From contig RXJV01000059.1 in assembly GCA_003963075.1 (NCBI GenBank), positions 1-64,000 on the forward strand: a stretch of DNA of 64,000 nt. Reading direction: 5' to 3'. The DNA is from Burkholderiales bacterium (GTDB taxonomy: Bacteria; Pseudomonadota; Gammaproteobacteria; Burkholderiales; Burkholderiaceae_C). The stretch's first letter is position 1, and every line of letters starts with the position of its first letter. A program made the position numbers and the translations under genes. Of the stretch, positions 2,343 through 43,579 are shown in pieces. The notes below the pieces were generated by a model. That model saw only the letters and a program-made list of their open reading frames with translations, was not told the origin of the DNA and did not search any database.

Positions 2343-5447
<3,105 letters not shown>

Positions 5448-13150: not shown

Positions 13151-13175
13151 CGGGGCCGCGCTGCGCCTGCCCACC

Positions 13176-15393: not shown

Positions 15394-15395
15394 GC

Positions 15396-18075: not shown

Positions 18076-18461
18076 TGCGCGGCCCTGCTCGCAGCGGCTT
18101 CACGCTGATCGAACTCATCGTCGTGATGGCCATCGTCGCGCTGCTGGCCAGCATCGCCGCGCCGCGCTATTTCGCGTCGGTCGAGCGCGCCAAGCTCAAC
18201 AGCCTGCGCACCTCGCTCGTCGTCATGCGCGACGCCCTCGACAAGTTCGCGGCCGACAAAGGCCGCTACCCCGACTCGCTGGAGCAACTGGTGCAAGAGC
18301 GCTACCTGCGCCAGATCCCCGAAGACCCGATCACCGGCAGCAGCCAGACCTGGGTCGTGCAGCCGCCGCCCACGAATGCCGACATCGGCGGCGCGGTTGG
18401 CGATGTCCGCAGCGGCGCGCCCGGCCCGGCCCCCGATGGCAGCCTGTATGCCGACTGGTAG
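18075..18461 (+). CDS. second GspG-like pseudopilin
   Basis: 128 residues with leader MRGPARSG, cleavage before FTLIELIVVMAIVALLAS and Glu at +5. The mature part resembles GspG (LVVMRDALDKFAADKGRYPD, IPEDPITGSSQTW, ending GSLYADW), but lacks the standard GspG C-terminal DYDLLSFGKDG block. The start overlaps the previous stop (TAATG). Confidence 0.87.
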   Translation: MRGPARSGFTLIELIVVMAIVALLASIAAPRYFASVERAKLNSLRTSLVVMRDALDKFAADKGRYPDSLEQLVQERYLRQIPEDPITGSSQTWVVQPPPTNADIGGAVGDVRSGAPGPAPDGSLYADW

Positions 18462-18966
18462 CCCATGCCCGCCACGCCGCGCGGCCCGGCGCGGCTTCAC
18501 CTATCTGTGGCTGCTGTTCGTGCTGGCCCTGGGCGGCGTCGCGCTGGCTGCCGTCGGTGAGCTCGAACAGGACCGCCAGTTGCGCGAGCGCGAGGCCGAG
18601 CTCCGTTTTCGCGGCGAAGCCATCGCGCGGGCACTGGGCCGTTATGCCGAGCAGACGCCGCTCGGCCAGTCGCCCCTGCCCCGGCGCCTGGAAGACCTGC
18701 TCGCCGACACGCGCTTCCCCAAGCCGAGGCGGCATCTGCGCCAGGTCTACACCGACCCCTTCACCGGCCGCGCCGACTGGGAGCTGATGCTCGGCCAGGT
18801 GCCCACGACGACGGGCCCCGGCGCCCGGCTGGTGCAGGCCTCCGGCATCGTCGGCGTGCGCAGCCGCTCCGACAAAGCCCTCAGGGCCTATGCCCAGCAG
18901 TACAAGACCGCCCATGACTGGGTGTTCACCGCGACGCTGAGCAGTCCCTCAATCCAGGGGCAATAA
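18448..18966 (+). CDS. prepilin-like protein without Glu5
   Basis: 172 residues if started at ATG 18448, which overlaps the previous gene by 14 bases. The N terminus RRGFTYLWLLFVLALGGVAL looks like a prepilin helix, but position +5 is Trp instead of Glu. GspK-type tip pseudopilins also lack Glu5. The rest has a repeated REREAELRFRGEAIARALGR helix and DPFTGRADWELM, reminiscent of GspG/H-like folds. It is the last gene of the operon. No clear terminator follows. Confidence 0.75.
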   Translation: MPTGSPCPPRRAARRGFTYLWLLFVLALGGVALAAVGELEQDRQLREREAELRFRGEAIARALGRYAEQTPLGQSPLPRRLEDLLADTRFPKPRRHLRQVYTDPFTGRADWELMLGQVPTTTGPGARLVQASGIVGVRSRSDKALRAYAQQYKTAHDWVFTATLSSPSIQGQ

Positions 18967-24154: not shown

Positions 24155-24188
24155 CCGGCCCCTTGCCCAAGGGGCCGGATAGTTTTTG
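24155..24188 (+). promoter_or_regulatory. hairpin enclosing the tpsB ribosome-binding site
   Basis: CCGGCCCCTTG (24155-24165) pairs perfectly with CAAGGGGCCGG (24168-24178). The only Shine-Dalgarno-like sequence for the TTG start at 24186, AAGGGG (24169-24174), lies inside the 3' arm. The T-run TTTTT after the stem includes the start codon, so the same element also looks like an intrinsic terminator. It may restrict tpsB-tpsA expression by masking the site or by attenuation. Confidence 0.5.
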
Positions 24189-25853
24189 AAGCCCCTCGCC
24201 CACACCCGCACCGCCGGACCTCACCGTCGCCTTCTGGCTGCCTCGCTGGCCGGCCTCGCCCTGGCCTGCGCCGGTGCCGCCTTCGCCCAGCAACCCCCGG
24301 TCAGCGCGCCGCGCTTCGACATCCTGGAATACGAGGTCGAGGGCAACACGGTGCTGGGCGCCGCCGCGATCGAGCGCGCGGTGATGCCCTTCCTCGGGCC
24401 GCAGCGCAGCCTGGACGACGCCGAGGCGGCCCGCGCCGCGCTGGAAAAGGCCTACCAGAACGCCGGCTATCTGACCGTTTTCGTCGACCTGCCGGAGCAG
24501 CTGGTGGACGGCGGCGTGGTGAGGCTCAAGGTGCTGGAAGGCCGGGTCGACCGGCTGGCCGTGACCGGCGCGCGCTATTACGACCAGGGCCGCATCCGCG
24601 AGCGGGTGACCGAGCTTGCCGAGGGCCAGGTGCCGAATTTCAACGAGGTGCAAAAGCAGCTCGCCCAGGTCAACAACAGCGAGACCCGCCAGGTCCAGCC
24701 GGTGCTGCGCCCGGGCCTGCTGCCCGGCACCGTGGAGGCCGAGCTGCAGGTCAAGGACAAGCTGCCGCTGTCGGGCTTCGTCGAGGTCAGCAATGCGGCC
24801 ACCGCCAACACCACCGCCGAACGGGCCACCGCCAACCTGCGCTACGACAACCTCTGGCAGCTCGGCCACAGCATCGGCCTGACCGTGACGACCGCGCCCA
24901 CCGCGCCCAAGCAGACCACGGTGACCGTGCTGAACTACGGCATCCCGCTGGCGCAGGGCGACAACCTCAGCCTCTACGCCACCCACTCCAGCAGCAACAC
25001 CAATTCGCTGGGCGGCACCCAGGTGCTGGGCAAGGGCAACACCCTGGGCCTGCGCTATGGCATCAACCTGGGCATCAGTGAGCAATGGGCGCAGAACCTG
25101 AGCCTGGGCTTTGACTACCGCAATGTGCAGCAGCAGGTGCGCTTTGGCAGCGCCAGCATCACCAAGCCGCTGCGCTATATGCCGCTGCAGGCCGGCTACA
25201 CGGCCAACTGGTTCGGCCCCAGCCGCCAGGGCCAGCTCGCGCTGACGATGAGCTTTGGCCTGAGCCCGCTGCTGGCGCGCCGCATCGACGGCTGCGAGCT
25301 GGAGGACGGCAGCATCGGCGTGGACGACCAGTTCCGCTGCTCGCGCAAGGGCGCCGACGGCGGCTTCTCGACGCTGCGCATGGACCTGCGCCACACCGAG
25401 AACTTCGCCAACTTCAGCATCGCCGGCCGCGTCGCCGGCCAGCTGGCCACGCAGCAGCTCACCAGCGCCGAGCAGTTCACCCTGGGCGGCGCCGACACGG
25501 TGCGCGGCTATTACGAGAGCGCCGCCGTCGGCGACCTCGGCCTGATGGCCTCACTCGAACTGCGCAGCGCCAACCTCGCCACCTGGCTGCAACGCCGGCA
25601 CCCCGGCGAGGCCTTGGCCGACCTCGGCGAGCTGAGCCTGCTGGCCTTTGTGGACGCCGGCCGCGTGCAGACCATCAACCCCGACCCGGGCCAGGCCTTG
25701 CGCCAGCCGCTGCTGGGCACGGGCGTGGGCGTCCGATTCGCCAGCCGCAGCGGCGTCAACCTCGACCTGACCATCGCCGAGGCCCACCGGGCCATCGCCG
25801 GCGCCCCCAAGCCGGGCACCCGTGCCCATGCGCGCATGTTCGTGAAGTTCTGA
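24186..25853 (+). CDS. two-partner secretion outer-membrane transporter TpsB (FhaC/ShlB family)
   Basis: 555 residues: signal peptide ending around AGAAFAQ, two POTRA-type domains (about 45-115 and 118-190; LRVLEGRV-like region VVRLKVLEGRVDRLAVTG), and a 16-strand barrel from about 200. The family-defining lid-lock motif GGADTVRGY lies near residue 434, and the protein ends in Phe (FVKF), as expected for BAM-inserted barrels. It exports the TpsA encoded 2 bases downstream. TTG at 24186 is the only start that retains the signal peptide, because an in-frame TAG lies two codons earlier. The ribosome-binding site is hidden in a hairpin. Confidence 0.95.
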   Translation: MKPLAHTRTAGPHRRLLAASLAGLALACAGAAFAQQPPVSAPRFDILEYEVEGNTVLGAAAIERAVMPFLGPQRSLDDAEAARAALEKAYQNAGYLTVFVDLPEQLVDGGVVRLKVLEGRVDRLAVTGARYYDQGRIRERVTELAEGQVPNFNEVQKQLAQVNNSETRQVQPVLRPGLLPGTVEAELQVKDKLPLSGFVEVSNAATANTTAERATANLRYDNLWQLGHSIGLTVTTAPTAPKQTTVTVLNYGIPLAQGDNLSLYATHSSSNTNSLGGTQVLGKGNTLGLRYGINLGISEQWAQNLSLGFDYRNVQQQVRFGSASITKPLRYMPLQAGYTANWFGPSRQGQLALTMSFGLSPLLARRIDGCELEDGSIGVDDQFRCSRKGADGGFSTLRMDLRHTENFANFSIAGRVAGQLATQQLTSAEQFTLGGADTVRGYYESAAVGDLGLMASLELRSANLATWLQRRHPGEALADLGELSLLAFVDAGRVQTINPDPGQALRQPLLGTGVGVRFASRSGVNLDLTIAEAHRAIAGAPKPGTRAHARMFVKF

Positions 25854-25855
25854 CT

Positions 25856-28800
25856 ATGCCCCGCCACATCAAGCATCCGCAGCGTCCCCTGACCCCCGCA
25901 CCGCGCCCGACGGCGCGCGCGGCCGACGTCTCACCGCCCTGGCCCCATGCGGGCCACGCGCTGCTGCAGCCGCTGATCGTGGCCCTGGCGGCATCGATGC
26001 CGCTCACCAGCCTGGCCCAGACCAAGCCGGTGCTGCCGGTGCCGTCGACCCCGTCGGCCACGATCCCCGGCTGGCGCGCCTACAGCAATGGCGCCGAACG
26101 GACAACGCAGCCGATCATCAGCCCCGATGGCCGCTCGATGACCATCGACCAGCAGGGCACCCGCGCGATCTACAACTGGAACAGCTTCAACATCGGCGCC
26201 GGCAACGCGGTCACCTTCGACATGGCCCAGAAGGGCTCGAGCGCGCTGAACCGCATCAACGGCAACGACCCCAGCCAGATCTTCGGCTCGCTCAAGGCCA
26301 CCAACGGCGGCGAGGTCATCCTCTACAACCGCAACGGCATCCTGTTCGGCGGCGGTGCCCAGGTCAATGTGGGCAGCCTGATCGCGACGACGCTGAGCCC
26401 GCGCGACGCCGACTTCAAGGCCGGCTTTGGCGGCAACATCACCGGCGGCGATGCAGCGTTCTCGGTGTTGCATGACCCCGCGAACTCGCCGGGGCTGTTC
26501 TCGAGCAGCTTTGTGCGGGTCGACGCCGGCGCTCAACTCACCAGCGCCGAGGGCGGGCGCATCTTCCTGTTCGCCAAGCAGGTGAGCAACGCCGGCACGA
26601 TCACCTCGCCCGGCGGCCAGGTGGTGCTGGGCGCGGGCGCCGAGGCCTATCTGCGCCTGCCCACCGGCGACACCCTGTACGCCTCCGAGGTCAACCCGGC
26701 TGTGCCGTCGGTGCGCGGCCTGCTGGTCGACCTGGGCCGCGCCGGCCTCGACAAGGCGGGCGATGGCAGCGTTAGCAACGACGCTGCCGGCGTGATCTCG
26801 ACGCCGCGCGGCAACACCACGCTGGTGGGCATGGCGGTGAACCAGTCGGGCCGGGTCACGGCGACGACGAGCGTGTCCCAGAACGGCTCCATCCTGCTGC
26901 TGGCGCAAGGTGGAGCCTCGACAGGCAACGGCATCGGTAGCGGCAGCCCGAGCTACAAGCGCGCCCAGGTCAACGGCGACCTCGTGCTCGGCAGCGGCAG
27001 CCGCACGGAGATCCTGCCGGACAACAATGGCGCCGACGGCAAACCGCTCAGCTCCGACGACAGCTCCACCTTTGTCGCGTCACGGCTGCAGTTCAACGGC
27101 CAGAACATCACGCTCAGGCCCAATGCCCAGGTCGTCGCCCCGGGCGCGCAGGCCTCCATCCGCGCCACGACCACACCGATCTACGACCCGACGCCGGGCA
27201 AGTTGTTCGAGTTCAAGCCCGATGCCGGTCGTGTGCTGATCGGCGAAGGCGCCAGCATCGACCTGTCGGGCACCACCGACACGACCTTGAGCGCCGGCCG
27301 CTTCTTCGTCACCACCGAGCTGCTGGGCAGCAACGACCTCGCGGATTCGCCGCTGCAAAAGAGCGGCCTGCTCTACCGCAACAAGGTCACGCTGGACGTC
27401 CGCAACAGCTCGCCCATCCTGGGCAGCCTGGCCAGCTACCGCAGCGCGCTGCAGCGCAGCGCCAGCGAGCGCATGTCCGTCGGTGGCTCGTTGAGCCTGC
27501 TGGCCGGCGAGGCCGTCGTGATGGCCAACAGCGCGACGCTGAATGTCTCGGGCGGCAAGGTCAACTACACCGATGCGGTGGTGTCGCCCACGGTGCTGAC
27601 CGCGAGCACCGGCAAGACCTATTCGCTCTCCGATGCCCCCAAGGACCTTGTCTACACCGGCATCACCAACGCCTTCACCAACGTCACCAGCTGGAAGCGC
27701 AACGGCGCCACAGTGGCCTACGGGACGCTGACGCCCGGACGGCTGGAATCCGGCTATGTTTCCGGCAGCGCTGGTGGCTCGCTGTTCGTGCTGGCACCGA
27801 ACGAGGTGCTGGGCGGCAAACTGTTGGGCGGCACGACGGTTGGCCGGCGCCAGACCAACGGCCTCGACGCGCTCGCCAAGCCGGCCAGCCTGGAGCTGGG
27901 CACTGCGTTTCATGGCCCCGACGGCGCCTTCAGTGCCGGCGCGGGCTACCTGGGCCCGATACTCGGTGCGCTGGACATCAGCCGCAGTGCGACCAGCCTG
28001 AGCGGCGCGAACTGGAACACGCTGCTGACCGACCCCTTGGCCGCAGCCCCCGGCGGCGGCTGGGTGTCGACCCTGTCCGCCGACCAGCTCGAGGCGAGCG
28101 GATTTGGCGCGATCACGATCAGCACCGCACGCGACCTGACCTTGAAGGCCGAGATCGGCCAGCTGAACCTGCCCCGGCTCGCCAGCCTGGCCCTGAATTC
28201 GCAGGGCGGCGGCGTGCTGATCGACAGCTCGGTACGCCTGCCGGGCGGTAGCCTCAGCGCGCGCAGCCTGCGCACCGGCGATGTGAAGCTGGGCCGCCAG
28301 GTGGTGCTGGATGCCTCGGGTGACTGGGTCAATGCGTTGCTGGACGGCGCTGGCTCCAGCGCTGGAACGGCCGGCGGCAGCATCACGCTCAGTTCACAGC
28401 GCAGCGTGATCACGGGGCCGGGCGCGGTGCTCGATGTGTCCGGCGGCGCGCTGGTGGACGCCAGCGGCACGGTGCGGGGTGGCAACGGCGGCAGCATCGT
28501 GCTGAGCTCCGGCTTCGCGGACACGATCAGCGGCGAAACGATCGACCAGTCGACGCAACGCCAATTGCAGATTTCTGGCATCACGCTGCGCAGCTTCTCG
28601 ACGACGCGCGGTGGCAGCCTCAGCCTGACTGCCCCGTCTTTCGATATCGGCAGCTTTTCGACCCCCTTGGCTGTGAACGCCGCGGACGCGACGCGGGCAC
28701 CCAATGGACTGAGCCTGTCGGCCGAGTTTTTTGGCCAGGGCGGTTTCACCGCCTTCACACTCGACGGGCGCCGCGCCCTGACCGTGGAGCCCGGCACCGT

Positions 28801-31800
28801 CATCGCACCAACCGCAGCCTCCTGGCTGCAGGGGTCGGGTACAAGCAGCAAGCCCAGCGGCACCTCGGCGTCTCTGGCCTTCGCGGGGACTGGCCTCAAC
28901 GTGACCCAGTTGCCGCAGGGCGTCAGCTTCGACCTGCGGTCCAGCGGATTCGGGCCGGACCAGGCCGAGGGTGCAATCAACGTCGCTAGCGGCAGCCGCT
29001 TTGACCTGCAAGCTGGAACCAGCCTATCGCTGTCGGCCGCCACCAGCCTGTTCTTCGACGGCCAGGCCCGTGCAGCGGGCGGGCGCGTCTCCATGACCGC
29101 CGGCGCGGCCAGCACCAACGTCGCCGCGCCCAGCTATCTCTGGCTTGGCGCCAACAGCCGCCTGGATGTTGCCGGTACGGTGCTGCGCACGCCCAGCACC
29201 GACGGGCTGCTTCGCGGCAGCGTGCTGGACGGCGGCTCGGTCAGCCTGTCCACCAGCCGGACGCTGCGTTCCAGCCTGATCTGGCAAACAGGTAGCGTGA
29301 TCGATGCCAGCGGCAGCGCCGGCGCCTTGGACGTGACCCTGCTCGACCAGGGCAACACCACGACCCAAAGGCAGACAGTTGCCAGCGCCGGCGGCAGTAT
29401 CAGCTTCGCCGGCAATGCACAGATGCTGCTGGAAGGCCGCATGCTGGCCACCGGCGGTGATTCGCAACGTGCCGGCGGCCGGCTCAGCGTGTCATTGACG
29501 AGCGGCCTTACCGACCCGATCTCCGCCCCCGATCCGATCGCACTGACGCTCACCAAGACCGCGACAGGCTTCTCCTCGCTGCTGCGCCCGGGCGATCTCC
29601 AGGGCGCTGCGACCTTGGTGCCCCGGGCGTCGATCTCGGCGGATCAGATCGCAGCTTCCGGCGTCGCCGATCTGACGCTGTCGGCGCAGGACGGCTTGGT
29701 GCTTGGCACGGGGGCCAGCCTGAACCTGGCCCGCCAGCTCAATATCGATGCGCCCCTGCTGCGGCTCAACGACCGGGATTCGTCCACGCTGACGGCAACC
29801 CAACTGCGCTGGGGCTTTGCGCAGCAAGCGTCCAAGGCAGGGGGCGAACAGGAACGAGTCGCCTCCGCCACCGCAGGCAATGGCCAACTGGTGCTTCAGG
29901 CCACCAACCTCGTGCTGGGCGAGCGCCTGGTCACTCAGGGCGTCGGCAGCCTCACGCTCAGCGCGACCCAGGATCTGCGCCTGCAGGCCGCCAAGCTGGA
30001 TGCCAAGGGCTCGCTGACCGGCAGCCTGACGACGCAGGCCGACACCACCGTCACTGCGGCCCAGATCTACCCGGCCTCCGACACCCGCTTCACGGTCGAC
30101 GCCACTGGCCGCCAACTCACCCTGAACGGCTCGGCCGCCTCGACAACGCCCGATGCGCCGTTGAGTGCCGGCGGCTCGCTGCAGTTGCTGGCCGACACCA
30201 TCGACGTCTCGGGCACCCTGCGCGCGCCTTCCGGCAGCATCGCGCTGAACGCCACGACCGCGATTCGCGAGCGCAAGGGCGCGTCGATCTCCGTCAGCTC
30301 GGCGGGGCAGGCCTTGATCTACGGCCAGACCACGAGCGGCAACTGGCAGTCGCCGCAGCAGATTGGCAGCTCGGCGTCGCTGACGGCGCCGCCAGCGAAG
30401 AACATCAGCCTCACCGCCCCCGTGGTGGACCTGCAGACCGGCGGCAGCATCGACCTCAGCGGTGGCGGCCAGTTGCTGGCCTGGCAATTCATTCCCGGCC
30501 CCGGTGGCTCCACCGACGTGTTCACCGGCAGCGACGGTGCTTTTGCGCTGCTGCCCAAGCAGGGCCTACAGGGGGCCTTCGACTATCTGATGCAGGGCGC
30601 CACGCCCGCCCTCGGCAAACAGCTCGTCATCGGCGCCGGCGGCCCGGTCCCGGCAGGCAGCTACACGCTGCTGCCGGCCCGCTACGCCATCCTTGACGGC
30701 GCCTATCTGGTGCGGCCCGTCACAGGCGGCACCCCACTGACCCTCGGCACCGCGCTGACCCAGCCCGATGGCAGCGTCTATGTCGGCGCTCAACTCGCCG
30801 ACGCCGGCACCTCGCTGCGCAGTTCGCTGCCCAGCACCTGGTCCATCCAGACCTCGGCACAGGCGCTCAAGCGCTCCGAGATCCGCACCGTCGGGTCGGA
30901 CAGCTTCTTCAGTGCCCTGGCTCAGCGCAATGGCCTGCCAACACCGGCCCTCAGCACCGATGCCGGCCGCCTGGTGGTTGCCAGCCAGCAGCTCAACCTG
31001 GCCGCCTCGCTACAGGCGGCCCCTGGCACCACGCCCCAGCCCAGTGGCGCGGCCCTGCCGGGCCGCGGCGCCCAGGTCTATCTGACAGCGGCATCGCTGC
31101 AGGTCGGCGGCAGCTCGACCGATGCGGCGACCTCGGTCATCGATCCCGCGTCACTCAATGCGCTGGCGGCCAACCTGCTGGTGCTGGGCGCGACGCCCGG
31201 CCCGGCGGCCGCCGACGCAGGCGGCCTCAATGTCACCACCGGCAGCCTCGCGGTGGCCGCGGGCAGCCCGCTGCGCGCCAACGACCTCGTCCTCGCCGCC
31301 AGCAACACCCTGACCCTCGGCGACGGCGCGCAACTGCAGGCCCAGGCCGACCCGTCCAAGCTCGGGCCCACATCGGTCGGTGATCTGCGCATCGCCGGCG
31401 ATGGCGCGGCCCTGCGTCTGTCCAGCCAAGCCAGCGGAGCCGCGCTGCTGCGCAGCCCGACGCTGACCGGCAGCGCGCAACTGCTCATCGGCCAGAACGT
31501 GAAGCTCGACGCCGGCAGCGGCACACTCACCGTGGACAGCTCCGGGAGCGCGGCTGCTGGCGCCGGCCTGACCCTGAATGCCGACGCCCTGACCCTGGGC
31601 GCAGGGCGCCTCGCGGTTGGCACCGGACGCGATGCCACCAGCTGGCAGCTCGACCCGGCCTGGTTTGCCGGCCTCGGTGCCAACGACAGCCTGACCCTGC
31701 GCGGCTACCGCTCGATCGACTTTGCGGCCGGCAGCAGCCTGGGCGGCAGCGGGCTCGGTGACCTGACCCTCGACAGCCAGCTGCTGCGGGCACCCGGCAG

Positions 31801-37800: not shown

Positions 37801-37807
37801 CTCGTGA
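25856..37807 (+). CDS. giant filamentous-haemagglutinin-like exoprotein TpsA (DUF3739-type C terminus)
   Basis: 3983 residues, the largest gene of the window. An extended signal peptide (about 1-55) precedes the TPS export domain (about 70-290: YNWNSFNIGAGNAVTFDM, NRNGILFGGGAQVNVGSL). Residues 300-2400 are beta-helix-type repeats rich in Ser, Gly and Ala. Three Pro-Thr-Ala stalks follow (about 2409-2482, 2543-2620, 2822-2969), each tied to a GNGN..TRNTLPPPPP unit. The C-terminal 900 residues carry repeated AGRDI motifs and a DUF3739-like end (VNQSRVFTLDEGDLLLFSKA, NIDAGRGAKT). The very end is DDDKKKRRKRRNLLLEFLGFG. Likely a surface adhesin or sheath protein; no toxin or VENN motif is seen. 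Confidence 0.94.
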   Translation: MPRHIKHPQRPLTPAPRPTARAADVSPPWPHAGHALLQPLIVALAASMPLTSLAQTKPVLPVPSTPSATIPGWRAYSNGAERTTQPIISPDGRSMTIDQQGTRAIYNWNSFNIGAGNAVTFDMAQKGSSALNRINGNDPSQIFGSLKATNGGEVILYNRNGILFGGGAQVNVGSLIATTLSPRDADFKAGFGGNITGGDAAFSVLHDPANSPGLFSSSFVRVDAGAQLTSAEGGRIFLFAKQVSNAGTITSPGGQVVLGAGAEAYLRLPTGDTLYASEVNPAVPSVRGLLVDLGRAGLDKAGDGSVSNDAAGVISTPRGNTTLVGMAVNQSGRVTATTSVSQNGSILLLAQGGASTGNGIGSGSPSYKRAQVNGDLVLGSGSRTEILPDNNGADGKPLSSDDSSTFVASRLQFNGQNITLRPNAQVVAPGAQASIRATTTPIYDPTPGKLFEFKPDAGRVLIGEGASIDLSGTTDTTLSAGRFFVTTELLGSNDLADSPLQKSGLLYRNKVTLDVRNSSPILGSLASYRSALQRSASERMSVGGSLSLLAGEAVVMANSATLNVSGGKVNYTDAVVSPTVLTASTGKTYSLSDAPKDLVYTGITNAFTNVTSWKRNGATVAYGTLTPGRLESGYVSGSAGGSLFVLAPNEVLGGKLLGGTTVGRRQTNGLDALAKPASLELGTAFHGPDGAFSAGAGYLGPILGALDISRSATSLSGANWNTLLTDPLAAAPGGGWVSTLSADQLEASGFGAITISTARDLTLKAEIGQLNLPRLASLALNSQGGGVLIDSSVRLPGGSLSARSLRTGDVKLGRQVVLDASGDWVNALLDGAGSSAGTAGGSITLSSQRSVITGPGAVLDVSGGALVDASGTVRGGNGGSIVLSSGFADTISGETIDQSTQRQLQISGITLRSFSTTRGGSLSLTAPSFDIGSFSTPLAVNAADATRAPNGLSLSAEFFGQGGFTAFTLDGRRALTVEPGTVIAPTAASWLQGSGTSSKPSGTSASLAFAGTGLNVTQLPQGVSFDLRSSGFGPDQAEGAINVASGSRFDLQAGTSLSLSAATSLFFDGQARAAGGRVSMTAGAASTNVAAPSYLWLGANSRLDVAGTVLRTPSTDGLLRGSVLDGGSVSLSTSRTLRSSLIWQTGSVIDASGSAGALDVTLLDQGNTTTQRQTVASAGGSISFAGNAQMLLEGRMLATGGDSQRAGGRLSVSLTSGLTDPISAPDPIALTLTKTATGFSSLLRPGDLQGAATLVPRASISADQIAASGVADLTLSAQDGLVLGTGASLNLARQLNIDAPLLRLNDRDSSTLTATQLRWGFAQQASKAGGEQERVASATAGNGQLVLQATNLVLGERLVTQGVGSLTLSATQDLRLQAAKLDAKGSLTGSLTTQADTTVTAAQIYPASDTRFTVDATGRQLTLNGSAASTTPDAPLSAGGSLQLLADTIDVSGTLRAPSGSIALNATTAIRERKGASISVSSAGQALIYGQTTSGNWQSPQQIGSSASLTAPPAKNISLTAPVVDLQTGGSIDLSGGGQLLAWQFIPGPGGSTDVFTGSDGAFALLPKQGLQGAFDYLMQGATPALGKQLVIGAGGPVPAGSYTLLPARYAILDGAYLVRPVTGGTPLTLGTALTQPDGSVYVGAQLADAGTSLRSSLPSTWSIQTSAQALKRSEIRTVGSDSFFSALAQRNGLPTPALSTDAGRLVVASQQLNLAASLQAAPGTTPQPSGAALPGRGAQVYLTAASLQVGGSSTDAATSVIDPASLNALAANLLVLGATPGPAAADAGGLNVTTGSLAVAAGSPLRANDLVLAASNTLTLGDGAQLQAQADPSKLGPTSVGDLRIAGDGAALRLSSQASGAALLRSPTLTGSAQLLIGQNVKLDAGSGTLTVDSSGSAAAGAGLTLNADALTLGAGRLAVGTGRDATSWQLDPAWFAGLGANDSLTLRGYRSIDFAAGSSLGGSGLGDLTLDSQLLRAPGSGDASASASRITLVNSSGLQPAASPADALPAGSLALKATDRVTVASGAQRSEAARTEWQAGSAVRFDGASSSTFSGALAVTTPVIGSGRAADASVAVGGRFSVAAAPAPSSPATGFSPAGRLQVSAGEIAQNAAIDFTAGSVQLNATSGDIALGSAARVSVRGSTVSLGGTAVDLPAGSLSLQSATGSVTLAAGAVADVSAAGQGDAGRLAIAAPQGRIELAGSLLGTAAPGARGASLTLDSAAATNLNQLATQLQAGGDGNFSNSLYIRNRKDDQQLGAGTQLAAKQISVVSDQGALQIAGRLNTSTAPAGRISLAAGGDLTLLNGGALVASADAAGRGGSAELSSTAGTINLQTGSVIDLGSPPNGAAPSGVLTLTAARTGLASNGSGVGDDVNIAAIGSSLNGIGFVDVQAVKVYSGVTQIKAGLTPAPAPAPTVKPTQAPTVKPTQAPTAAPTAGPTAAPTAGPTSAPTAGPTTQPTTGPTAQPTPAPTSPSAGNGNDTTRNTLPPPPPTAKPFAAPSVASVVIASISGTGIQAAAVQPSVGNGNNSTRNTLPPPPPVAPPAATPTAGPTAGPTAGPTAGPTAGPTAAPTAGPTAGPTAGPTAAPTASPTAAPTSAPTAAPTPAPTAAPTPSPILGIQTVDNESRSFINAAAEKTANRLMANQPASALAVTRVRALAEIRSSADLSLAADWNLPLLSAADRGLTPHAAETAVTLRAAGNLNITNGLSAGFAPTQTSTASNLDTWVASSALAGGLRLVAGADIGSANSLAVRSGAPNVSLNIGRSGTGATPPTVTVRSTTGALRLASAGDVVLTNIGAKVYTTGVPVTDQDGSAAYIMPAPPSPTAAPTAAPTAAPTAAPTAAPTAAPTAAPTAAPTAAPTAAPTAAPTAAPTAAPTAAPTAAPTAAPTAAPTAAPTAAPTAAPTAAPTAAPTAAPTTAPTSAPTVGPTSAPTSAPTASPTAAPTPAPTAAPTSAPTPAPTSPSVGNGNNTTRNTLPPPPPTARPATTPAAAVEVASVKAAAVQAVADTPTMAPTVAPTTAPVSNPLGIDLDALKTNLQVAGNSPFLKNGGAIDVNAGRDLKGAVLGTTQRDVTQWWWRAGVVGNAPSAWWSRYDLFNQGIATFGGGSITLNAGRDAVQMHASAASNGWRVAANASTGAAASVFTRGGGSVALQAGRDVLAGRLFASQGDLSVTSGRRIGSDETATTEAPDARLQLLFGSTRVQVQAATGIDMAAVRSAALSVAPTALRAGNTLGSASVLVGLDTNASLNLLSTGGDVRLRSEVGRSDVSSAVDPQLPGAVQIVAANGTIQLDQKLAQNPNGVARTVLLAQSDIKLADVAIGSVGPALDAGTYNATSYAQAVLKADRGYTPPALPGTVIAPMLDASGRDPVRLVAATGDVVLTSNFRSARPVDIEAGRDINFSGSSATMNVQHQDRRLDNPTGPVPVSELSLLKAGRDIRDLAIDVAGPGDLVLMAGRDVVLDSGTKSGIVASGGTNNSTLLPNQGANITVIAGLRGDDGDYRGATLKGFELLGVSGWQGKVGALYRAVGGSGDAAAFAALSASAQLDAIGSLLGSSAYQSGLGNYVRALPARAEAGDQARRIAALLGKSVDDPAVAAYAKAAGSLTLPAWSDLSVEQAAQAFGGLPEAQRAAAVPTLLLQRFATLTAAARQQVMLDVAQPQQLKALGDYVRQVTSQPQLADADALAAFEALPVERQIPWLNRQLVGELRTAGRAAAALDGDARWQAYANGYLAVNTVFPVEGLAQRPAGDILLPASQVKTIQRGDISLFAPGGGVNAGEVVASGLSKSPSQLGIVTVNGGNISALVQADFAVNQSRVFTLDEGDLLLFSKAGNIDAGRGAKTVVGAPAPVLRLDSNGNLVYDTSGSFSGSGIAVLNAQSNLDLYAPAGDINAGEAGIRSKGNAFLAAERVVNAIDIQVGGKTTGGGKVDAPAPVLSAPPNTALTPTSAGLASSDADDDKKKRRKRRNLLLEFLGFGSS
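33278..34811 (+). repeat. three copies of a GNGN-TRNTLPPPPP coding repeat in tpsA
   Basis: Copies start near 33278, 33422 and 34751. Each encodes SxGNGNxxTRNTLPPPPP, a proline run and a linker with VASV and AAAVQ. They flank the Pro-Thr-Ala stalks, so the region looks like a duplicated stalk module. Confidence 0.75.
34339..34606 (+). repeat. 12-bp tandem repeat array in tpsA (AAPT stalk)
   Basis: Eight perfect copies of GCAGCACCCACA run from 34463 to 34558, followed by four near copies (GCGGCACCMACA) to 34606. Older, diverged copies reach back to about 34339. Each unit encodes Ala-Ala-Pro-Thr, so copy changes keep the frame and alter only stalk length. Confidence 0.9.
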
Positions 37808-37824
37808 TTCAACCTTCCCACGCC

Positions 37825-39525
37825 ATGATGCGAACAGCCCTTTCCTCCCTCGTGCTCTCCTGCGCTGCGGCGCTGCTGCCCTCCACCGCCCATGCCTGGT
37901 GGAACGGCGACTGGAGCGAGCGCGCCAAGATCACGCTCAACACCTCGGCACAGGGCATCGAAACCAAGGAGGCCGCGAGCAATGTGACGGTGGCCGTGCG
38001 CCTGCATTCGGGCAACTTCGATTTCACGGCGGCCAAGGAGGACGGCTCGGACCTGCGCGTGATCGCGGGCGACGACAAGACGCCGCTGAAGTTCAGCATC
38101 GAGCGCTTCGACAGCGTCAACGAACTGGCGGTGCTGTGGGTGCAGTTGCCCAGCGTGCTGCCCGGCACGGACAAGAACGTGTTCTATGTCTACGGCGGCA
38201 ATGCCAAGGCCGCGGCCGAGGCGGACGCGACCGGCTTCGATGCAAGCACGGTGGCGGCCCTGCATTTCTCCGACAAGAACGGCGGCGCCGATGCCCTGGG
38301 CCTGCTGAAGCCGGCCACGCCGCCGGCGCTGGAGCCCAACGGCCTGCTCGCGGCCAGCGCCAAGCTCAGCGGCGAGGCCATCGTCTATGCGCTGTCGGAC
38401 AAGGCCATCGTCGACGCCGGTAACCAGTTGACCGCCAGCGTCTGGGTCAAGCTCGACGAGGTGCAGGGCGGCGGCAAGCTGCTGCAATGGGGCGGCCTGA
38501 GCCTGGAGGTCAAGGGCGGCAAGGCGGTGCTGCGGGCCGACAAGGCCGAGCTCAGCGGCGGCGACATCGTCGCCACGCGCTGGACGCAGATCGCGCTGCG
38601 CCTGGGCTCGGGCAAGGCGACGCTGTTCGTCAACGGCGCGCAGGTGGCGCAGGGCGACGCGGCCACGCCGGCGCTGGGCAACAGCCTGCGCCTGGGTGAG
38701 GGCGCTCGCGGCCTGATGGACGAGGTGCAGATTGCCGCCGCGCTGCGCAGCGGTGACTGGATCGCGGTGAGCGCCGGTGCCCAGGGCGCCGAGAGCAAGC
38801 TGGTGGCCTCCAACAAGGAGTCCAAGGACAGCCCCGAGGCCTCGGGCGAGAGCCACGGCTATATGGGCATCCTGATCAAGAACCTGACGGTCGACGCCTG
38901 GGTCGTCATCATCATCCTGGGCATCATGTTCGCGATCGCCTGCTGGGTGATGGTCAGCAAGGGCGTGCTGGTCAGCAAGGTCGAGAAGGCCAACCGCAGC
39001 TTCGTCAAGCGCTTCCGCGAGGCCAACGACGAGCTGCTGCAGCTCGAGGCCCATGCCCCGCATCCGAACTCGCCGATCTACCGCCTCTACCTGGCCGGTG
39101 TGCGTGAGCTGGCCAAACGCAAGGCCGGCGAGGCCGGCGCCAAGCCGCTGAGCGGCGCGTCGCTGGACGCGGTGAAGGCTTCGGTGGATGCCGACTATGT
39201 GCGCGAGAACGCCAAGCTGAACTCGGGCATGGTGCTGCTGACCATCGCGATCTCGGGCGGCCCCTTCCTGGGCCTCTTGGGCACGGTGGTGGGCGTGATG
39301 ATCACCTTCGCGGCCATCGCGGCGGCGGGCGACGTCAACGTCAATGCCATCGCCCCGGGTATTGCCGCCGCGCTGCTGGCCACCGTGGCCGGCCTGGGCG
39401 TCGCGATCCCGGCGCTGTTTGGCTACAACTACCTGGCCGCCCAGATCAAGAACGCGACCTCGGACATGCAGATCTTCATCGACGAGTTCATCACCCGCGT
39501 CGCCGAGCTGTACGGCCAGTCATGA
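37825..39525 (+). CDS. ExbB/TolQ proton-channel protein fused to an N-terminal DUF2341/lectin-like periplasmic domain
   Basis: About 566 residues. Signal peptide (ALLPSTAHA), then DUF2341-type start WWNGDWSERAKITLNTSAQG and a concanavalin/LamG-like fold (about 120-320: ASVWVKLDEVQGGGKLLQWG, TRWTQIALRLGSGKATLFVN). A first membrane helix lies at about 355-377. The ExbB core follows at 455-540 with FLGLLGTVVGVMITF and the final helices. Standard ExbB has no such 340-residue outer domain. It would form the motor with the two ExbD proteins downstream. ATG 37825/37828 is preferred; a GTG at 37804 overlapping the tpsA stop is possible. Confidence 0.85.
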   Translation: MMRTALSSLVLSCAAALLPSTAHAWWNGDWSERAKITLNTSAQGIETKEAASNVTVAVRLHSGNFDFTAAKEDGSDLRVIAGDDKTPLKFSIERFDSVNELAVLWVQLPSVLPGTDKNVFYVYGGNAKAAAEADATGFDASTVAALHFSDKNGGADALGLLKPATPPALEPNGLLAASAKLSGEAIVYALSDKAIVDAGNQLTASVWVKLDEVQGGGKLLQWGGLSLEVKGGKAVLRADKAELSGGDIVATRWTQIALRLGSGKATLFVNGAQVAQGDAATPALGNSLRLGEGARGLMDEVQIAAALRSGDWIAVSAGAQGAESKLVASNKESKDSPEASGESHGYMGILIKNLTVDAWVVIIILGIMFAIACWVMVSKGVLVSKVEKANRSFVKRFREANDELLQLEAHAPHPNSPIYRLYLAGVRELAKRKAGEAGAKPLSGASLDAVKASVDADYVRENAKLNSGMVLLTIAISGGPFLGLLGTVVGVMITFAAIAAAGDVNVNAIAPGIAAALLATVAGLGVAIPALFGYNYLAAQIKNATSDMQIFIDEFITRVAELYGQS

Positions 39526-39529
39526 GCCC

Positions 39530-39640
39530 ACCCCCTACCGGCTTCGCCGGCCCCCTCAAGGGGGCGCCGCCAGTGGCCCGGCAAAGCCGGCTCCACGGCG
39601 GCCGCTGGATGAAGCACCTCGTCTGCGACGAGGTGCGTCC
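39530..39640. repeat. REP-like cluster of hairpins between exbB and exbD
   Basis: The 135-bp gap holds CCGGC-TTC-GCCGG (39538-39550), CCCCCT-CA-AGGGGG (39551-39564) and a perfect CACCTCGTC-TGC-GACGAGGTG (39615-39635). Such stem-forming blocks are common extragenic repeats in Burkholderiales. It is the only sizeable gap within an otherwise tight operon. Confidence 0.6.
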
Positions 39641-39660
39641 TTCGAACTGGAGCGCGTGAA

Positions 39661-40074
39661 ATGTCCGCGGACGTCAAGTCAGACAACCAGCCGTATGACG
39701 ACATCAACGTCACGCCGATGCTGGACCTCGCCTATGTGCTGCTGGTGGTGTTCATCATCCTGACCACCGCTTCGGTGCAGGGCGTGAAGGTGAATTCGCC
39801 TGTCACACAGGCGGCCAACAATCTGGCCAAGCCACAGACACGCGCGATCACGATCACGGCGGACGGCGGCGTCTTTCTGGACGCCTACCCGGTCGACATG
39901 GACCAGCTGCGCAATTCCCTGGCCCAGTACAAGTCGGCCAACCCCAACCTGCCGGTGGTGCTGAAGGCCGACGCCGCCGCGCAGTACGGCAAGGTGATGG
40001 AGGTGCTGGAGGTGGCCAAGAAGCTGGACATCACCGAGATCGGCTTCGTCACCAAGCGCGCCACGGCGGAATGA
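39661..40074 (+). CDS. exbD: ExbD/TolR-type protein 1
   Basis: 137 residues: INVTPMLDLAYVLLVVFIIL is the ExbD signature, with the proton-relay Asp in the single membrane helix. A periplasmic domain follows (ITITADGGVFLD, VVLKADAAAQYGKVMEVLEV). It partners the upstream ExbB fusion. Confidence 0.93.
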   Translation: MSADVKSDNQPYDDINVTPMLDLAYVLLVVFIILTTASVQGVKVNSPVTQAANNLAKPQTRAITITADGGVFLDAYPVDMDQLRNSLAQYKSANPNLPVVLKADAAAQYGKVMEVLEVAKKLDITEIGFVTKRATAE

Positions 40075-40086
40075 AAAACTGAGACC

Positions 40087-40488
40087 ATGCAAGTCCAGAG
40101 CGAAGCCAAACCCTATGACAGCATCAACGTCACGCCGATGCTGGATCTGGCCTATGTGCTGCTGGTGGTGTTCATCCTGATGACCACGGCTTCCGTGCAG
40201 GGCCTGAGCATCAACCTACCCAAGCCCAGCAACAAGCCCAGCACCGAGAAGCACGAGCTCAAGATCGTCCAGGTCATGCCCGACGGCGCGGTGCTGCTCA
40301 ATGGCGTGGGCGTCAGCCTGCCCGAACTCGAAACCCAACTTGCGGCCGCCAAGGCGCGCGACGCGGGCATGTCGGTCGCGATCAAGGGCGACCAGCGCGC
40401 CCAGTACGCCAACGTCGTCGCCATCATCGACCTGTGCAACAAGCTGCAGGTCAATATGGGGCTGGTCACGTCCAGGATCGGCACATGA
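40087..40488 (+). CDS. exbD: ExbD/TolR-type protein 2
   Basis: 133 residues, a diverged paralogue of the preceding gene with the same INVTPMLDLAYVLLVVF core and the proton-relay Asp. The periplasmic part differs (LPKPSNKPSTEKHELKIVQV, VAIKGDQRAQYANVVAIIDL). Two ExbDs suggest a mixed complex or separate partners. It overlaps the next start. Confidence 0.92.
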   Translation: MQVQSEAKPYDSINVTPMLDLAYVLLVVFILMTTASVQGLSINLPKPSNKPSTEKHELKIVQVMPDGAVLLNGVGVSLPELETQLAAAKARDAGMSVAIKGDQRAQYANVVAIIDLCNKLQVNMGLVTSRIGT

Positions 40489-41219
40489 TGAGCACGCCCG
40501 CCGAAAAAGCCGCCCTCGAAGCGGCAGCCGAAGCCGCTGCCCGCCGCCGCAGCCGCTGGATCAAGCTGGCGGTGGCCCTCGGATTTGTGGGCGTGGGCGT
40601 GGCCGTGTGGTGGGGCGTCACGCACATGAAGGCCGAGCCGCCCAAGCGCCAGGTCGCCAAGATCTCCATCCTGCCCGACACGCCGCCGCCGCCCCCGCCG
40701 CCGCCCAAGGACGAGAAGAAGCCCGAGCCGCCCAAGGACGAGCCCAAGCAGGTGATGCGCGAGGAGCAGATCAAGCAGGTCGAGGCGCCCAAGCCGGCCG
40801 AGTCGATCAAGATGGAAGGCGCGGCCGGCGACGGCCCCAGTGCCTTCGCGGCCGGCAGCGTGTCCAAGGACTATGCCGGCGGTACCCCCAACACCGGCCC
40901 CGGCGGTCCGGCCGGCACGGCCGCCGACCGGGCGCAGGAGCGCTTCTATGCCAACAACGCGCGCCAGCTGCTGCAAAGCGAGATCGAGAAGCGGCTGAAG
41001 TCGGATGCCGAGCAACTGACCGCCACGTTTGCGATCTGGCTGGACAAGGACGGCGGCATCCAGCGCTTCGAGCTCAGCCCGAGCGGCAATGACGCCAACG
41101 ACGTCGCGCTGCGCGCGGCGCTGGAGGAAACCCGCCGCCAGTTCAAGCTGCCACCGCCCCCGGCCGTCGCCCTGTCGCAACCGATGCGCTTTCGCCTCAG
41201 CGTGCGCCCGCAAGCCTAA
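40485..41219 (+). CDS. TonB-like energy transducer
   Basis: 244 residues. One N-terminal membrane helix (LAVALGFVGVGVAVWWGV), a proline/lysine/glutamate-rich linker with an eight-proline run followed by KDEKKPEPPKDEPKQ, then a TonB_C-type domain (LTATFAIWLDKDGGIQRFEL, then LRAALEETRRQFKLPPPPAV). The order ExbB-ExbD-ExbD-TonB makes a complete motor. Its outer-membrane partner is not obvious: no TonB-dependent receptor is in the window, and the candidates are TpsB, TpsA or the porin downstream. ATG 40485 or 40488 overlaps the exbD stop. Confidence 0.85.
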   Translation: MMSTPAEKAALEAAAEAAARRRSRWIKLAVALGFVGVGVAVWWGVTHMKAEPPKRQVAKISILPDTPPPPPPPPKDEKKPEPPKDEPKQVMREEQIKQVEAPKPAESIKMEGAAGDGPSAFAAGSVSKDYAGGTPNTGPGGPAGTAADRAQERFYANNARQLLQSEIEKRLKSDAEQLTATFAIWLDKDGGIQRFELSPSGNDANDVALRAALEETRRQFKLPPPPAVALSQPMRFRLSVRPQA

Positions 41220-41267
41220 GAGGCCGAGAGCCATCCCAGCCTCTGATTCCGTTTCCCCCACCCGACC

Positions 41268-42944
41268 ATGAAACCCATCCTCACCCTGCTGGCCGCCAGC
41301 CTCATTGCCGCCGCCCTGCCCGCCCAGGCCCAGTCTTCCGACAAGGAGGAACTCGCCCGCCTGCGCGCCACGACCCAGGCCCTGATCGATGCCCTGGTGG
41401 CCCAGGGCCTGCTGACCCGCGACAAGGCCGAGGCCATCCTCAAGCAGGCTCAGGCCACGGCCCAGTCTGCCGCCGCAGCACCGGCTGCGTCGGCCCAGGC
41501 CGACGCCACCGCACCCAAGGTGCTGCGCATCCCCTATGTGCCCGAAACGGTGCGCCAGCAGATGCGCGACGAGATCAAGGCCGAGGTGCTGGCCCAGGCC
41601 AAGGGCGAGCGCTGGGGCCAGCCCGATGCCCTGCCGGACTGGGTCGGCCGCATCAAGGTCAGCGGCGATCTGCGCGTGCGCGGCCAGAGCGAGATCTTCG
41701 ACAAGGGCAATGTGCCGGCCGAGGAGTTCCGCAAGCAGACCGCATCGCCGGCCTGGGCGGTGGACCTGCCCAACACCACGAACGAGCGCCAGCGCATGAC
41801 GCTGCGTGGCCGGCTGGAGGTCGATGCCAAGCTCAGCGACCAGGTGCTGGCCAGCGTGCGCCTGGCCACCGGCAGCACGGGCAACAGCGCCACGTCGACG
41901 TCGCAGACCCTGGGCAACGACTTCAACCGCTACACCATCGGCCTGGACCGCGCCTACATCCGCTGGCAGCCGCCGCTGTTCTTCAACGGCCTGTCCGCTG
42001 ACTTCGGCCGCATGCCCAACCCCTTCTACAGCACCGACCTGGCCTGGCCGGATGACCTCGCCTTCGACGGCGTCGCGGCCAAGCTCAACCAGGTGTTCAC
42101 GCCGAAGCGCTCGCTGTTCGCGACGGCCGGTGTGTTCCCGCTGGAGGAACTGCAGCTGACGACCAGCGATAAATGGCTGTTCGGCGCCCAGCTGGGCGGC
42201 GAGATCGACCTGGCCCGTGGCGTGCAGTTCAAGCTGGGCCTGGCGGCCTACGACTTCCGCAACATGCAAGGTCAGCGCGAGACCAACCCGCCGCCCAGCG
42301 GGCCAAAAAATGGCACGACCAACTATTTCGCGTCGCAGTACGCGCCCGGCCTGCGGTTGAAGGGCAACACGCTGATCAACCTGAACGACCCGACCAGCAC
42401 GGCCGCGCCGACCTGGGGCCTGGCGTCCAAGTTCCGTCCCGTCAACCTGACGCTGGGCCTGCAGCTCGACGATCTGCTGCCGGTGCCGGTGGGCATGACG
42501 CTGGACTGGATCAAGAACACCGGCTTCGACATCGCCGACATCGAGCGCCGCGCCGGCGTCAGCTTCCGCGACCCGGCCCGCCCGGAGCGCACCCTCCTCG
42601 AAAAGACGACGGCGGTGCAGGCGCGCGTCCAGGCCGGCGCCCTGCGCGTGGCCCGCCGTGGCGATTGGCAGGCCTTTGCCGCCTACCGGCTGGTGCAGCG
42701 CGACGCCTGGATCGACGGCTTCACCGACACCACTTGGCACCTCGGCGGCACCAACTACAAGGGTTGGAGCCTGGGCGGCAGCTACGGCCTGGACAAGAAC
42801 TTCTGGCTGGCCGCGCGCTGGACCAGCACGCGCAACCTGGACGACGGCGTGCGTGTTTTCGATGCCGCCGGCGCGATCGGCAACCTCAGCAGCGCACCGC
42901 TGCGCATTGAGGTGTTCCAGCTCGACCTGAACGCGAGGTTCTGA
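41268..42944 (+). CDS. putative outer-membrane porin
   Basis: 558 residues. Signal peptide (ALPAQAQ), a short helical N-terminal stretch (SDKEELARLRATTQALIDAL, likely coiled), then a beta-barrel type sequence from about 120 (RIKVSGDLRVRGQSEIF, RLEVDAKLSDQVLASVRLAT, DFGRMPNPF), ending in Phe (LDLNARF). The overall pattern matches the family annotated as putative porin (Porin_5-like). It lies in the TPS/TonB operon and overlaps the following gene by 1 base. Substrate unknown. Confidence 0.82.
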   Translation: MKPILTLLAASLIAAALPAQAQSSDKEELARLRATTQALIDALVAQGLLTRDKAEAILKQAQATAQSAAAAPAASAQADATAPKVLRIPYVPETVRQQMRDEIKAEVLAQAKGERWGQPDALPDWVGRIKVSGDLRVRGQSEIFDKGNVPAEEFRKQTASPAWAVDLPNTTNERQRMTLRGRLEVDAKLSDQVLASVRLATGSTGNSATSTSQTLGNDFNRYTIGLDRAYIRWQPPLFFNGLSADFGRMPNPFYSTDLAWPDDLAFDGVAAKLNQVFTPKRSLFATAGVFPLEELQLTTSDKWLFGAQLGGEIDLARGVQFKLGLAAYDFRNMQGQRETNPPPSGPKNGTTNYFASQYAPGLRLKGNTLINLNDPTSTAAPTWGLASKFRPVNLTLGLQLDDLLPVPVGMTLDWIKNTGFDIADIERRAGVSFRDPARPERTLLEKTTAVQARVQAGALRVARRGDWQAFAAYRLVQRDAWIDGFTDTTWHLGGTNYKGWSLGGSYGLDKNFWLAARWTSTRNLDDGVRVFDAAGAIGNLSSAPLRIEVFQLDLNARF

Positions 42945-43579
42945 TGATGACGCGCATCACGCTCTTGCTGCTGGCTGCATCGCTCGCCGTGGGCGCGCAG
43001 GCCCAGGACGCCAAGGTATCCAAGGAGCGCGAGGCCCTGCGCCGCGCCCAGACGGCCCTGCGTACCGCGCAGGAGCAGCAGGCCACGCTGCAGGCCGACA
43101 AGGCCAAGGCCGAGGCCGAGGCCACGGCCGCCCAGAAGGACGCCGCCAGCGCCAAGGCACAGATCGCCGGCGCCGCGGCCAAGCTCAAGGCCCGAGAGGC
43201 CGAGCTGGACGCGCTGCGCGCGGAGCTGCAGGCCGCCAAACAGGCGCAGCAGCAGACCGAAGCCCAGGCCGGCGAACGCGATCAGGCCTTGCAGCAGCAG
43301 CTGATCGCGGCGCGCCAGGAGGCGGCATCCCGCCAGCAGGCCAACCAGGTGCTCGTGCAATTGCTGGAACGCAGCACCACGGCCCTGGCCGATGCCGAGG
43401 CCAAGAACCGCAAGCTCTATGAGATCGGCCAGGAGCTGGTGCAGCGCTGGACCGGGCGCTCCAAGCTCGACACCGCGCTGCAGCAGGACCCGGTGCTGGG
43501 CCTGACCGCGGTGCGCTTTGAAGACCAGGCCGAGAAGCTGCGCGCCGAGCTGGCTGCACAGCGCGTCGTGAGCCGCTGA
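42944..43579 (+). CDS. periplasmic coiled-coil protein, function unknown
   Basis: 211 residues: signal peptide (SLAVGAQAQ), then an almost continuous coiled coil (about 25-160) rich in Ala, Gln, Lys and Glu. A short globular tail follows (NRKLYEIGQELVQRWTGRSK, DPVLGLTAVRFEDQ). The shape recalls periplasmic chaperone or spacer proteins. Last gene of the operon, translationally coupled to the porin. Confidence 0.7.
   Translation: MMTRITLLLLAASLAVGAQAQDAKVSKEREALRRAQTALRTAQEQQATLQADKAKAEAEATAAQKDAASAKAQIAGAAAKLKAREAELDALRAELQAAKQAQQQTEAQAGERDQALQQQLIAARQEAASRQQANQVLVQLLERSTTALADAEAKNRKLYEIGQELVQRWTGRSKLDTALQQDPVLGLTAVRFEDQAEKLRAELAAQRVVSR

Follow-up and report, generated by a model that had tools for sequence, protein, structure and literature searches.

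A two-partner secretion cassette encoding its own TonB-ExbB-ExbD-like motor: does the motor reach the tail of the substrate?

Introduction

What would a two-partner secretion (TPS) system do with a motor of its own? The question is raised by a locus in a 64,000-nucleotide stretch of DNA from a Burkholderiales bacterium (assembly GCA_003963075.1, contig RXJV01000059.1, positions 1 to 64,000; hereafter the window), in which the outer-membrane transporter TpsB and its giant substrate, TpsA, share one strand with a proton channel of the ExbB/TolQ family, two ExbD/TolR-family proteins, a TonB-like transducer, a porin and a coiled-coil protein (Table 1). An earlier note on this DNA set out from the usual description of TPS export as needing no energy from TonB, and a review does say that type V translocation relies on neither an energy source nor a gradient (PMC5422565). 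Elsewhere the driving force that takes TpsA across the outer membrane is called unclear (PMC8151025).

The gene cluster itself is already known from Pseudomonas aeruginosa, where, according to two papers, pdtB-exbB2-exbD2-tonB4-PA0696/PA0697 form one transcript that is adjoined by TpsA and the Hxc type II system (PMC7035377, PMC4971064). The P. aeruginosa neighbourhood that the earlier note had cited is real (PMC7035377), and the note's view of the cluster as undescribed did not hold, since an association of the cluster with TPS had already been pointed out for other genera in 2009 (PMC2729926) and the P. aeruginosa transcript is known. The ExbB2-ExbD2-TonB4 motor was termed "still uncharacterized" in 2020. 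The literature search returned no paper on a motor acting on TPS and none in which DUF3739, the C-terminal domain of this TpsA, appears. As far as that search shows, what is new here is a near all-or-none coupling of the motor to DUF3739 TpsAs, a motif in their tails, and evidence tying this motif to the TonB domain. From these comparisons it is proposed, with about an even chance of being right, that the locus encodes a TPS system with a dedicated proton-driven motor, whose client would be TpsA/TpsB, reached by docking of TonB on the TpsA tail.

The cassette and its coupling to one class of TpsA

All eight reading frames are present on the + strand between 24186 and 43579, in the order TpsB, TpsA, ExbB fusion, ExbD1, ExbD2, TonB-like protein, Porin_5 and coiled-coil protein, and together with the Pfam profile matches they bear out the co-directional cassette described in the earlier note. 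By coordinates, TpsB and TpsA are separated by 2 nt, TpsA and the ExbB fusion overlap by 4 nt, the two ExbD genes lie 12 nt apart, the porin follows the TonB-like gene after 48 nt and overlaps the coiled-coil gene by 1 nt; the sole larger gap, of 135 nt, separates the ExbB fusion from ExbD1. With a TonB start at ATG 40485 or 40488, the gene would overlap ExbD2 by 1-4 nt; the list of open reading frames (ORFs) puts the start at GTG 40434. The profiles identify both partners as type Vb proteins: PF08479 (POTRA) and PF03865 (ShlB/FhaC barrel) exceed their cut-offs in TpsB, and the TPS domain of TpsA scores 96.7 bits with PF05860 (cut-off 33.5).

With the ExbB fusion as query, named genomes yielded 53 loci, to which 11 of 76 plasmid records, matching at least 80% of the fusion, were added (64 loci in total). 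Because the same set recurs in these genome loci and plasmid records, the arrangement is not due to chance, and the view that TPS, motor, porin and coiled-coil genes constitute one unit is supported. Downstream of the fusion, wherever the contig extends far enough, ExbD is found in 63/63 loci, the TonB-like gene in 59/59, the porin in 56/58 (missing in L047 and L066) and the coiled-coil gene in 57/58 (missing in L047). Immediately upstream, profiles detect a TPS gene in 48 of 61 loci; seven of the other 13 have the C-terminal end of a TpsA there, as judged by profile and reading, and in L034 the frame is interrupted. Long frames read through over a TpsB upstream of the fusion in L050, L069 and L070, and L033, L047 and L066 have no TPS gene directly upstream, TpsA lying about 4-17 kb away. 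The loci span Beta-, Gamma- and Alphaproteobacteria as well as Verrucomicrobiota/Methylacidiphilales assemblies, and the closest relatives of the fusion (80-85% identity) belong mostly to Roseateles/Pelomonas and other Burkholderiales assemblies.

The coupling was counted in two genome samples. Among 398 Pseudomonadota genomes, with only the top candidates of a first pass scored in each (at most 11 for the DUF3739 search, 3 for the ExbB fusion and Porin_5), TPS domains occur in 141 and DUF3739 TpsA in 14; the ExbB fusion is found in the same 14 (13 full-length, one cut by a contig edge), as is full-length Porin_5, while ten further genomes match the ExbB part only and five others give partial Porin_5 matches. 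Of 100 genomes from the family to which the window belongs, 11 contain the fusion, all of them with DUF3739, and 12 have DUF3739 above its cut-off (G474, which scores below it, was left out of the count). Since G000 belongs to both samples, there are 25 distinct DUF3739 genomes, and 24 of them have the motor. The earlier note had held that its idea would fall if DUF3739 TpsAs regularly lacked the motor; it is present in 14/14 and 11/12, and the coupling is near all-or-none. In the window's own genome one protein contains DUF3739, two contain a TPS domain, and the MotA/ExbB family is matched seven times; G155 carries two ExbB fusions, with DUF3739 matches on two contigs.

A conserved motif in the TpsA tail

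What do the coupled TpsAs have in common beyond DUF3739? Between 11 and 74 residues from their C-terminus they carry a motif with the consensus P-S-[IVF]-[IL]-[TS]-V-[EDQ]-V-L-G-[FY]-G-[DG], which in the window reads LLLEFLGFG and is preceded by a polybasic run. The strict motif is present in 66/73 DUF3739 tails vs 0/33 verified TPS proteins that lack DUF3739; for a shorter core pattern the counts are 54/73 vs 1/33, and a nine-residue form is found in 63/73 tails vs four occurrences in 147,321 residues of TpsA bodies. The seven tails without the strict motif comprise two interrupted frames, four near misses and one divergent sequence (L086). The controls were drawn from 40 TPS loci, four of which have no complete frame; L139, L148, L152 and L167 were originally taken in the wrong frame, and with L139 re-examined (no motif in the right frame) and the other three excluded, 33 verified controls are left. 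The nine core columns hold 1.7-3.6 bits of information and the four preceding columns 1.3-1.8, the other tail columns being mostly below 1 (the automatic motif position of L041 in this alignment is wrong). In an AlphaFold model of the last 330 TpsA residues (42 sequences, mean pLDDT 81) the DUF3739 region is folded and block means in the tail are 33-48; as the tail is not packed into the fold, the motif seems to be a linear one and not a piece of the folded domain. A fold search with the C-terminal model of TpsA gave no match at E ≤ 0.001.

Which partner does the motif track?

Three genomes, G379, G200 and G284, contain two or three DUF3739 TpsAs and one ExbB fusion each. Within genomes, paralogues share 9/9 motif residues in 7/7 pairs (three genomes; L041 and L086, which lack the motif, were omitted), with preceding regions that are only 34-67% identical, whereas 5.5% of 1703 between-genome pairs in the same range have identical motifs. 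None of 20,000 matched resamples equalled the paralogue value, the basis being these three genomes. Since the motifs are identical despite the diverged background, a partner common to one genome seems to constrain them. One may ask if gene conversion produced this identity: G200 and G379 show synonymous codon differences within the motif, which makes it less likely, but the codons are identical in G284 and in two of the three G200 copies, so that it may still have played a part.

The divergence of the motif was further compared with that of the cassette proteins by partial distance correlation, with permutations that leave some shared-ancestry effects in place. With the C-terminal domain of the cassette TonB the values are 0.34 (n=53), 0.36 (n=28) and 0.37 (n=21) as relatives are thinned (G155 dropped out of this analysis), and TpsA's own DUF3739 region shows no partial correlation with the motif in this series. 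Other 12-residue windows, overlapping ones taken from the other cassette proteins and the TpsA C-terminal region, reach the motif's value in 1/334 cases at n=28 and 3/340 at n=21. These comparisons point to the cassette TonB C-terminal domain as the part with which the motif co-diverges best.

With a profile built from 62 cassette TonB domains, the window genome's eight TonB_C matches reach at most 22 bits. Six VreA-like proteins, with confirmed STN and TonB-type domains, in Pseudomonas-, Burkholderia- and Methylosinus-type clusters score 45-75 bits; other proteins with a TonB-type domain but no Pfam match, encoded close to these clusters, reach 26-57 bits, among them one in L064 that is located between PpiC and LysR. 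VreA itself, with signalling-like and TolA/TonB-like domains, was described in P. aeruginosa in 2009, and the VreA-like regulator and the motor may share one client.

A proposed mechanism and the points that weigh against it

In the proposed sequence of events TpsA would exit through TpsB with its N-terminus first, and its disordered C-terminal tail would be the last part to reach, or to stay in, the periplasm. There the cassette TonB C-terminal domain could bind the tail motif as an added β-strand, much as it would a TonB box, on the substrate instead of a receptor plug. Proton flow via the channel of ExbB fusion and ExbDs might then pull or hold the tail, so as to complete export, to regulate release or to tether the fibre across the envelope. 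The coiled-coil protein, the stalk of the porin and the DUF2341-LamG portion of the fusion might serve as scaffold parts. For Pseudomonas-type clusters we infer that a VreA-like protein reads the TpsA tail as well; with its STN and TonB domains VreA could report secretion status to an anti-sigma factor. The complete version, an energised TPS in which a giant substrate carries a C-terminal TonB-docking strand gripped by a private motor and VreA-like TonB domains sense the completion of export, is put forward tentatively and may well prove wrong. If one class of TpsA is indeed served by a private motor and itself bears the docking site, the TPS energy-source question could be tested by deleting single genes and by using one short peptide, and DUF3739, DUF2341-ExbB fusions and the P. 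aeruginosa TonB4 system would each acquire a function. Ton-dependent secretion has a precedent in Oar/PopC (PMC6434023). The earlier note had suggested that the motor powers export, surface release or extension of TpsA, or else feeds the porin; this interpretation as a whole is supported in part, and feeding of the porin is its weaker suggestion, given an ordinary barrel without a plug.

Several observations count against docking of TonB on the tail. Type V translocation can run in vitro without external energy (PMC5422565), and a P. aeruginosa insertion mutant in PA0695, a tonB homologue, had wild-type virulence in zebrafish embryos, virulence being the reported readout. The motif does not qualify as a canonical TonB box, as the genome's own receptor profile does not single it out: a profile from 29 receptor segments of the window's genome (receptor locus L202, in the wrong frame, omitted) scores DUF3739 tails no higher than controls (Mann-Whitney p 0.66; 36 controls including four wrong frames), and the resemblance, judged by eye, is limited to a V-x-V-x-G core. 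G413 possesses a DUF3739 TpsA with the tail motif, and neither motor nor porin was found there; this TpsA is apparently split over two frames and reaches the contig end, in a draft that is 94% complete in 130 contigs, and the porin search that failed in G413 gave none in its control genomes either, though the family was matched in the 398-genome sample. Under the strictest thinning (n=11) the motif-TonB partial correlation is 0.29 and not significant (p 0.13), and in a set of n=16 (L065, whose TpsA/TpsB frames are interrupted, among its rows) the DUF3739 region also correlates with the motif (p 0.028); because of these two results, the partner could be one other than TonB.

Other clients and roles of the motor

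Could the motor energise the porin for nutrient uptake, with TpsA doing the capturing at the surface, the part that HxuA plays for the TonB-dependent receptor HxuC? The co-occurrence of Porin_5 is as strict as that of the motor, the N-terminal part of the porin includes a conserved periplasmic segment, RxPYxPE, and the P. aeruginosa cluster is described as being under phosphate-starvation regulation. In the window, a Pho-box search gave 9 matches with up to 3 mismatches vs 11.1 expected, which lends PhoB control no support here. Before thinning the motif and the porin are highly correlated, a point in favour of this reading; the partial correlation, 0.19 at n=53, drops to 0.08 and 0.03 on thinning, so that the co-divergence vanishes. 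The Pfam scan found no plug domain in the porin, Porin_5 being its only match; the protein models as an ordinary porin barrel, and its nearest solved folds are ordinary or attachment porins, the best being OmpM1 of Veillonella parvula. Porins are also said to work independently of ATP and proton-motive force (PMC6434023). With the plug absent and the co-divergence lost, the porin was rejected as a TonB client in spite of RxPYxPE, and uptake through it is unlikely to be the role of the motor.

Action of the motor on TpsB, by POTRA or barrel gating, with the tail motif docked on TpsB or another envelope protein, is doubtful too and ranks after porin uptake. TpsB immediately precedes the ExbB fusion in 17/64 loci, most of which are distant relatives; represented among the 17 are Burkholderia, Cupriavidus, Variovorax, Klebsiella, Methylosinus, an Acidisphaera and Methylacidiphilales assemblies; TpsA lies in such loci before TpsB (L064), after the coiled-coil gene (L046, L057, L067) or elsewhere. 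A pore-plugging helix before POTRA is a described type Vb feature (PMC8151025). In an N-terminal alignment of 18 TpsBs, none of them from a motor-less system, no conserved plug helix was seen before POTRA, where variable, often Ala/Pro-rich linkers are present; TpsB gating may therefore differ from that of FhaC. The same alignment contains no conserved linear motif ahead of POTRA, and in the n=16 set, with TpsB included, the motif follows TonB (partial correlation 0.28, p 0.010) better than TpsB (0.14, p 0.16).

By NCBIfam scores the motor is nearer to TolQ/TolR than to ExbB/ExbD: the fusion, which satisfies the superfamily profile PF01618, scores 134 bits with tolQ (cut-off 221) and 76 with exbB (cut-off 206), and both ExbDs score higher with TolR than with ExbD, all motor NCBIfam scores being below the curated cut-offs. 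The C-terminal domain of the TonB-like protein passes TonB_2 (PF13103; 30.8 bits, E 3e-7, cut-off 22) and scores 18.9 bits with TIGR01352, under the cut-off of 27.1. These scores and the LamG-like periplasmic domain would fit a Tol-like motor of the envelope, one acting to stabilise or constrict the wall where an outsized surface protein sits and never touching TpsA directly. TolQ and TolR scores under their cut-offs, together with the motif and its identity among paralogues, which such a motor leaves unexplained, make this very improbable.

Relation to known systems

The closest known system is P. aeruginosa Pdt/TonB4 (PUMA3/PhoB regulon), which shares TpsB, ExbB, ExbD, TonB, a putative porin and a further protein in the same order; the gene set with a further exported protein is found in the window and its relatives, the P. 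aeruginosa order being that given in the papers. It differs from the window, where TpsA separates TpsB from the motor, ExbD is present twice, and a LuxR regulator and PEP-CTERM proteins are encoded upstream. No sigma, anti-sigma or VreA, YbjN or PpiC genes occur among the window neighbours scanned, and VreA-VreI-VreR were not seen among the window ORFs scanned, a search that left aside the other window ORFs and the rest of the genome. On a Klebsiella plasmid the order is TpsA-TpsB-ExbB-ExbD-TonB-porin-YbjN-PpiC-LysR, and its ExbB is a full-length match to the window fusion at 36% identity. Two Klebsiella plasmids, L064 and L065, carry such a P. aeruginosa-type cluster (motor, porin, YbjN, PpiC, LysR), which can thus be plasmid-borne; the annotation of L064 also has a sigma factor, a DUF4880 protein and TpsA, and L065 seems to carry interrupted frames for TpsA and TpsB.

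The type Vb pair FHA/FhaC resembles the cassette in its TPS domain and POTRA_2 + ShlB transporter, and differs in that the window has a dedicated motor, a porin, a coiled-coil protein, DUF3739 and the tail motif, with no conserved plug helix seen. In Oar/PopC of Myxococcus xanthus an ExbB, two ExbDs and a TonB likewise serve protein secretion, but the client is a TonB-dependent receptor with plug and TonB box, of which the cassette has none (PMC6434023). HxuCBA of Haemophilus influenzae also links a TPS operon to TonB energy, though as a three-gene operon that encodes the TonB-dependent transporter HxuC (PMC5422565). DUF2341-bearing ExbB/TolQ homologues, proton-channel subunits with an extra N-terminal domain like the window fusion, are described in PMC12505986, which assigns them no function; here the fusion is tied to one TpsA class.

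Features and neighbouring genes

Table 1. Coordinates of the cassette, its upstream neighbours and related proteins at other loci (prefixed by locus)
Feature	Coordinates	Strand	Basis or remark
TpsB, outer-membrane two-partner secretion transporter	24186..25853	+	POTRA_2 + ShlB
TpsA, 3983 aa: TPS domain, PT repeats, DUF3739	25856..37807	+	Pfam profiles
TPS secretion domain of TpsA, residues 77-346	26084..26893	+	profile match
DUF3739 domain of TpsA, residues 3828-3929	37337..37642	+	profile + model: folded β-rich C-terminal domain
Motif LLLEFLGFG of the disordered tail, residues 3973-3981; proposed docking strand for TonB	37772..37798	+	coordinates from TpsA frame
ExbB/TolQ-family proton channel fused to periplasmic DUF2341 + LamG-like domains	37804..39525	+	DUF2341 + Laminin_G_3 + MotA_ExbB
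Intergenic gap ExbB/ExbD1	39526..39660	.	GC-rich inverted repeat inside
ExbD/TolR-family protein 1	39661..40074	+	Pfam / NCBIfam scores
ExbD/TolR-family protein 2	40087..40488	+	Pfam / NCBIfam scores
TonB-like transducer: N-terminal hydrophobic segment, Pro-rich linker, divergent TonB_2 C-terminal domain	40485..41219	+	
Porin_5 outer-membrane porin: N-terminal helical stalk + conserved RxPYxPE segment	41268..42944	+	Pfam E 9e-158; model
Exported coiled-coil protein, conserved KNxxLYxxGxE region	42944..43579	+	no Pfam family
P9, secreted protein of unknown family, probable accessory	21097..22605	+	relatives directly before TpsB at L056, L071 and L179
Type II secretion / type IV pilus-like cluster, neighbour	11612..18966	+	T2SSE ATPase, PilN/GspL-like, secretin, prepilin-type protein
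VreA-like proteins	L067:13052-13780; L069:9944-10819; L073:7637-8614; L189:1705-2562, 17225-17911; L195:1495-2292		STN; TonB_2 called in 4/6
TonB-type C-terminal domain proteins	L064:22971-23402; L070:24883-25830; L073:28087-28722; L189:899-1483		no Pfam match

Upstream of the operon, P9 has no Pfam match and no PDB relative at E up to 1; its relatives are L056:6167-7768 and L071:5359-6741, with a weaker one in L179. Type II secretion-like clusters also adjoin the cassettes of Aquabacterium olei, Cupriavidus and P. aeruginosa. PEP-CTERM proteins are encoded at 20161-20973 and 22748-24061, just upstream of the operon, and the Aquabacterium olei plasmid has one similarly placed. In G268 TpsB, porin and coiled-coil genes stand together, with the motor on a separate contig. 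The Methylomagnum plasmid L066 has the motor and coiled-coil genes with no porin or TpsB adjoining, and two alkaline phosphatases, a RiPP gene set with Cys at every fifth position and TpsA within about 20 kb.

Within the cassette, a terminator-like hairpin (24155-24178) touches the TTG start of TpsB at 24186, and the exact start is for this reason uncertain. TpsA contains long PT/PTAAPT repeat stretches at residues ~2420-3000, which perhaps constitute a stalk. A palindromic GC-rich element at 39549-39566, in the ExbB/ExbD1 gap, is present in one copy in the window; it may stem from the insertion of a repeat, or may serve for processing or attenuation.

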